From Patescibacteria group bacterium (GTDB taxonomy: Bacteria; Patescibacteriota; Minisyncoccia; Phycocordibacterales; XYD1-FULL-46-19), in NCBI GenBank assembly GCA_030916795.1, contig JAUPVZ010000051.1, forward strand, positions 1 to 8,554: 8,554 nucleotides of DNA, read 5' to 3'. The notes beneath the pieces were generated by a model. The model had not been told where the DNA came from, did no database searches, and saw nothing but the letters and a program-made list of their open reading frames with translations. The translations under genes were made by a program, and so were the position numbers. The first letter of the stretch is position 1, and each line of letters opens with the position of its first letter. Below are positions 5,133 to 5,399 of this stretch, in pieces.

Positions 5133-5399
5133 ATGCGTCGAAAGCACAAACCAACATCACGTTTGCAACCCGATCTTGTCTACAACAATCTAAAAGTAGA
5201 GAAGCTTATTAACTATGTTATGGAGCGCGGTAAAAAAAATACAGCTCGTAAAATAGTTTATGGTGCTTTTGATTTGGTTAAAGAAAAAACAAAAGCTGAG
5301 GCAGTAGAAATATTTGAACAAGCTATAAACAATGTAGGGCCACAGATGGAGGTTCGTCCTCGTCGTGTCGGGGGTGCCAACTACCAAGTGCCTCACTAA
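5133..5399 (+). CDS. rpsG: uS7 N-terminal fragment (to the premature stop)
   Basis: If the stop is obeyed, this gives 88 residues: the basic N-terminal arm (MRRKHKPTSRL), the first helices (LINYVMERGKKNTARKIVYG, residues 28-47, then the VEIFEQAINNVGP region) and the first strand of the beta-hairpin (RRVGGANYQVP). It would lack the second hairpin strand and all C-terminal helices, so it is unlikely to be functional alone. It begins 21 nt after rpsL. Confidence 0.6.
   Translation: MRRKHKPTSRLQPDLVYNNLKVEKLINYVMERGKKNTARKIVYGAFDLVKEKTKAEAVEIFEQAINNVGPQMEVRPRRVGGANYQVPH

Follow-up and report, generated by a model that had tools for sequence, protein, structure and literature searches.

This locus raises the question of how a cell could make the essential ribosomal protein S7 when its gene, rpsG, carries a TAA stop codon in the middle of the reading frame. 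The window is a whole contig (C22) of 8,554 bases and belongs to a metagenome bin, G000, which comprises 461,735 bases in 59 contigs and is 80.12% complete and 0.1% contaminated. The features of the locus are:

4695..5111, plus strand: rpsL (S12), intact frame upstream of rpsG (ORF reading)
5133..5399, plus strand: rpsG codons 1-88 and the in-frame TAA, giving an 88-residue truncated S7 (ORF reading; Pfam S7 match)
5358..5360, plus strand: rpsG codon 76, CCT (Pro); Ser in the genus mate and in an S7 identical at 157/159 residues
5397..5399, plus strand: in-frame TAA at rpsG codon 89; the Glu codon GAA in the genus mate (genus-mate comparison)
5400..5612, plus strand: remainder of the S7 frame, codons 90-159 and the natural TAA stop, under constraint
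5678..7822, plus strand: fusA (elongation factor G), intact frame downstream of rpsG (ORF reading)

The S7 frame (5133-5612) consists of 159 codons. Reading of the ORFs confirmed the central claim of the first-pass annotation, that the TAA at 5397-5399 interrupts a frame that is open on either side and contains no insertion or deletion. The match to the S7 family (PF00177) is full-length, covering positions 1-148 of 148 with 198.1 bits and one internal TAA. Judged by their sequence, we take the flanking genes to be rpsL and fusA. The start of rpsL was placed by us at the methionine of MPTINQL, and fusA is 96% identical to an ORF of the genus mate (genome G001, Candidatus Vogelbacteria). With its full-length match and the rpsL-rpsG-fusA order of the str operon the gene is like other members of the family, from which it differs by the internal TAA at codon 89. 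A second S7 copy was not found in the 80.12%-complete bin by a Pfam profile search, a DNA search or a search with a 39-base pattern, and a literature search at the level of titles found no account of a stop in rpsG of this clade. The codons downstream of the stop had been described as conserved, and they are: relative to the genus mate, dN/dS is 0.038 for codons 90-159 and 0.063 for codons 1-88. The constraint on codons 90-159 is not relaxed, and therefore the stop is very recent, is bypassed, or is absent.

Across the site the genus mate reads CAA GTG CCT CAC GAA GTT CGC CCA GAA and the window reads CAA GTG CCT CAC TAA GTT CGC CCA GAA. The stop is a single G>T change from the GAA of the genus mate, and the adjacent codons are identical, which supports a base error. 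A comparison with rpsG of related genomes had been suggested as a check on the stop, and it leaves the window's genome isolated: an S7 match was found in 55 of the 61 related genomes, none of the other 54 having an internal stop. The histidine before the stop, which had been considered a second odd codon, proved unremarkable for this clade: it is encoded by the same CAC in the genus mate and was seen in 21 of 78 related loci (80 S7 loci were examined, and the motif was matched in all but two).

A wider sample of the class contained an S7 match in 368 of 383 genomes, and 2 of the 150 matches listed had an internal stop, that of the window's genome and that of genome G132. The latter (L220, contig C16, S7 match at 21276-21719 on the minus strand) is interrupted in frame by a TGA at codon 80, a position occupied by Gly in the family. 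The TGA of G132 is probably a similar artefact and not a sign of a UGA-glycine code, because two release-factor matches were found in this genome and its rpoB domain is free of stops.

An intact protein nearly identical to the read-through S7 is present in the database. The best match among the best 120 of 7,999 was P0002, a protein of 159 residues encoded on a 1,214-base contig. It is identical to the window's S7 at 157 of 159 residues, and its sole departures are at codon 89 (Glu versus the stop) and codon 76 (Ser versus the window's Pro). The contig of P0002, and likewise that of the GroEL protein P0242 described below, may derive from other samples or from the reads that gave the window. 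The 88-residue form was matched at 100% only by the window's own 8,554-base contig among the best 120 of 753 matches, in a search confined to database proteins of about 48-154 residues; the next match was 68% identical.

Codon 76, situated 39-40 bases upstream of the stop, was overlooked in the first-pass annotation. It encodes Ser in all 37 close relatives aligned (of 120 listed), whereas the window has Pro. Across the 78 wider relatives the residue is Ser in 66, Pro in 9, Gly in 2 and Ala in 1. On these alignments, proline at this position appears unusual but not unheard of, with precedent among the wider relatives, and since 9 of the 78 have it, the Ser76Pro change could be natural.

A comparison of genus-mate ORFs with the fetched stretches of the window's genome, which amounted to 325,877 of its 461,735 bases, revealed a second mid-gene stop. 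It is a TAA at codon 94 of groL (L159:428-430, contig C46), at a conserved leucine that is encoded by TTA in the genus mate and in relatives. In the Pfam search the GroEL of this genome contained one TAA, and the 17 other GroEL matches, from 16 genomes, contained none. An intact GroEL, P0242, is encoded on a 44,648-base contig; it is 99% identical and differs at five residues, 94 (the stop), 110, 113, 115 and 358, at all five of which the genus mate agrees with P0242. Residues 94, 110 and 113 are invariant in 57 further database GroELs (Leu, Gly and Val, 57/57 each), and residues 115 and 358 vary, never to the residues of this assembly. Of the 17 other GroEL loci, only L259 shares a residue with this assembly at any of the five positions, namely at 115. 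Three amino-acid-changing transversions lie 47-62 bases past the groL stop.

Several observations bear on whether UAA could be decoded as an amino acid in this genome. None of the 30 tRNA genes detected in the 80%-complete bin reads UAA, UAG or UGA. The bin has one PCRF release-factor match, and the genus mate has two. The single protein is release factor 1-like, and its PAT motif presumably marks it as release factor 1, which acts at UAA and UAG. A single PCRF match was the count in 6 of 21 genomes, mostly incomplete bins. Of 92 ORF ends read in a mechanically derived set that includes some probable non-genes, 46 were TAA, 33 TAG, 11 TGA and 2 other, TAA being the commonest.

The occurrence of in-frame TAA in two conserved genes is a classical hint that a codon has been reassigned, and in-frame stops in conserved Patescibacteria genes likewise characterize the UGA-to-glycine code of the Gracilibacteria and Absconditabacteria, as described in PMC8629427. 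The present case differs from that code in that the codon is TAA, it occurs at one site in each of two genes, it replaces two different residues, and it is the usual terminator of a genome that has release factor 1. The two sites, Glu in rpsG and Leu in groL, point to no single consistent amino acid; TAA is not a rare terminator, and the genus mate shows no such stops. Reassignment of UAA to a sense codon in the lineage is thus untenable, and we give it practically no weight.

Translational rescue, in which a suppressor tRNA or programmed readthrough inserts a residue at the UAA of rpsG (and of groL), would account for both frames being open downstream of the stop, and about 20% of the genome is absent from the bin, so that the tRNA could be unseen. 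It is opposed by the lack of a stop-reading anticodon among the 30 tRNA genes, by the release factor 1-like protein, by the relatives, which have no stop at the rpsG or the groL site, and by the use of TAA at half of the ORF ends, since suppression would lengthen many proteins. A suppressor is thus unlikely, with the missing fifth of the genome as a caveat, and rescue as a whole is very improbable. The narrower version of this idea, in which UAA ends most genes of the Vogelbacteria lineage and is read through at chosen sites in S7 and GroEL by means of a tRNA or factor encoded in the unbinned fifth, is just as hard to credit.

S7 could also be made in two pieces, residues 1-88 and a C-terminal piece translated from a separate start. 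The break had been placed in the loop of the beta-hairpin. An AlphaFold2 model with a mean pLDDT of 85, built for the intact P0002, has strands at residues 72-79 and 82-89 and helices at 92-109, 115-127 and 132-156, and residue 89 is therefore the last residue of the second strand and not part of the loop. According to this model, truncation at residue 89 would remove three helices, nearly half of S7, and this loss would presumably abolish the function of the protein. In-frame TTG codons at 5418 and later might provide the start of a second piece, but these codons are leucines kept by the family (RLALGL) and no new start was seen near the break. The break itself falls at a strand end, and groL would require the same arrangement. 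A split S7 is therefore scarcely conceivable. Readthrough, a suppressor tRNA and a split protein, all of which had been offered as ways past the stop, are left without support.

An independent look at the species of the window is provided by contig C45 (L282, 5,354 bases). It is assigned to bin G004 but belongs to the same species as the window's genome, because it is 99.29% identical to C46; it is probably mis-binned, G004 representing another genus. Two GroEL matches were found in G004. C45 and C46 differ at 38 positions over 5,354 bases, which form two blocks separated by an interval free of differences (1,496-5,015). Eighteen of the differences are in groL. Twelve of these are synonymous third-position changes (8 transitions and 4 transversions), and the six non-synonymous ones are all transversions (0 transitions; Fisher p 0.013). 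The T215S difference is ordinary variation, because P0242 matches this assembly there, and without it the non-synonymous changes number five transversions versus no transitions (p 0.029). Four non-synonymous changes, the stop included, fall within 63 bases (429-491). In this comparison, strain variation in groL is synonymous and transition-rich, and this assembly departs in a different manner.

The main rival of a base error is a real, non-functional allele, that is, a nonsense allele picked by the assembler, whose carriers would be cells or dead lineages that have no working S7 or are dying. Strain variation exists in the species, as seen from the two clusters of differences between these two public contigs, and the constraint downstream of the stop suits an error no better than a very recent mutation. 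Against this rival, S7 and GroEL would each have had to gain a nonsense change independently in one assembly, and every neighbouring change is a transversion that alters an amino acid, whereas the strain differences are synonymous. We consider such an allele unlikely, while giving it more weight than any of the decoding schemes or the split protein.

The stop is most likely a sequence error, because a near-identical intact copy of S7 exists and a second gene has similar odd bases. We estimate the probability that the rpsG TAA is a local base error of this fragmented bin, as judged by sequence comparison, at about 0.83. The error is supported by near-identical copies that lack the change (P0002 for rpsG, P0242 and C45 for groL) and by the presence of more than one such defect in the assembly. 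The first-pass annotation had named an error or a very recent mutation as one branch of its explanation, and this branch fits the single-base distance from GAA, the downstream constraint, the 157/159 identical intact S7 and the groL stop. The case is like other false nonsense codons in draft and metagenome genomes in that a one-base change puts a stop into a conserved single-copy gene, the bin is fragmented, nearly identical copies elsewhere are intact and a second case is found in the same assembly. It differs from them in that there is no genome-wide excess of odd changes and the error is inferred from comparison.

The lack of such an excess, and the location of the rpsG pair of changes in mid-contig, count against an error. 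In 55 genes the unique amino-acid-changing bases at conserved places numbered 284 in this genome versus 340 in the genus mate, which is no excess of odd changes. Radical unique residues numbered 41 versus 25 in the genus mate over 39 genes (p 0.064), which is suggestive only, and C>A or G>T made up 40 of the 284 unique changes versus 29 of the 340 (p 0.030), a weak hint only. When the two genomes were scanned for clustered radical changes, one gene was flagged in each, with no excess here, and groL was not flagged. No frameshifts were seen in 116 ORFs. In the genes of the window about 4.2% of single substitutions create a stop, and two stops would thus correspond to roughly 1e-4 errors per base. 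Given the lack of a genome-wide excess and of frameshifts, and a Pro76 that occurs in 9 of 78 wider relatives, the errors, if they are errors, are local, and a local error does not require a genome-wide excess.

The comparison of this genome with the genus mate yielded 22 stop rows in 14 ORFs. The stops outside rpsG and groL were dismissed by eye as lying upstream of the likely true start (such as an S20-like ORF in L160 and one in L154), at alignment ends, or in short multi-stop ORFs of antisense or non-coding appearance. A third case may be real: an in-frame TGA at L230:3878-3880 (contig C26), in a variable stretch of a lipoprotein-like gene that shares 57% identity with the genus mate.

A local error could have arisen if, for a few stretches of this incomplete and fragmented bin, the reads were sparse or damaged. 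The consensus would then have taken up incorrect bases, chiefly G>T or C>A, two of which would have created stops. Five of the seven changed bases in rpsG and groL are G>T or C>A, the two rpsG bases being inferred from the genus mate. Oxidised guanine yields such changes, according to the abstract of PMC9636213; to name it as the cause here would be a guess.

Metagenome bins do contain in-frame stops in essential single-copy genes (2 of the 150 S7 matches listed, with S7 found in 368 genomes), and near-identical copies need to be compared before recoding is proposed. A simple test, which can be reused, is to compare a second conserved gene of the assembly with a contig of the same species. Were the stop real and bypassed, it would represent context-dependent recoding of UAA in essential genes of a host-dependent bacterial lineage. 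Most likely, the rpsG stop is not new biology, and S7 would be intact in the living cells, made in the ordinary way as one chain of 159 residues.
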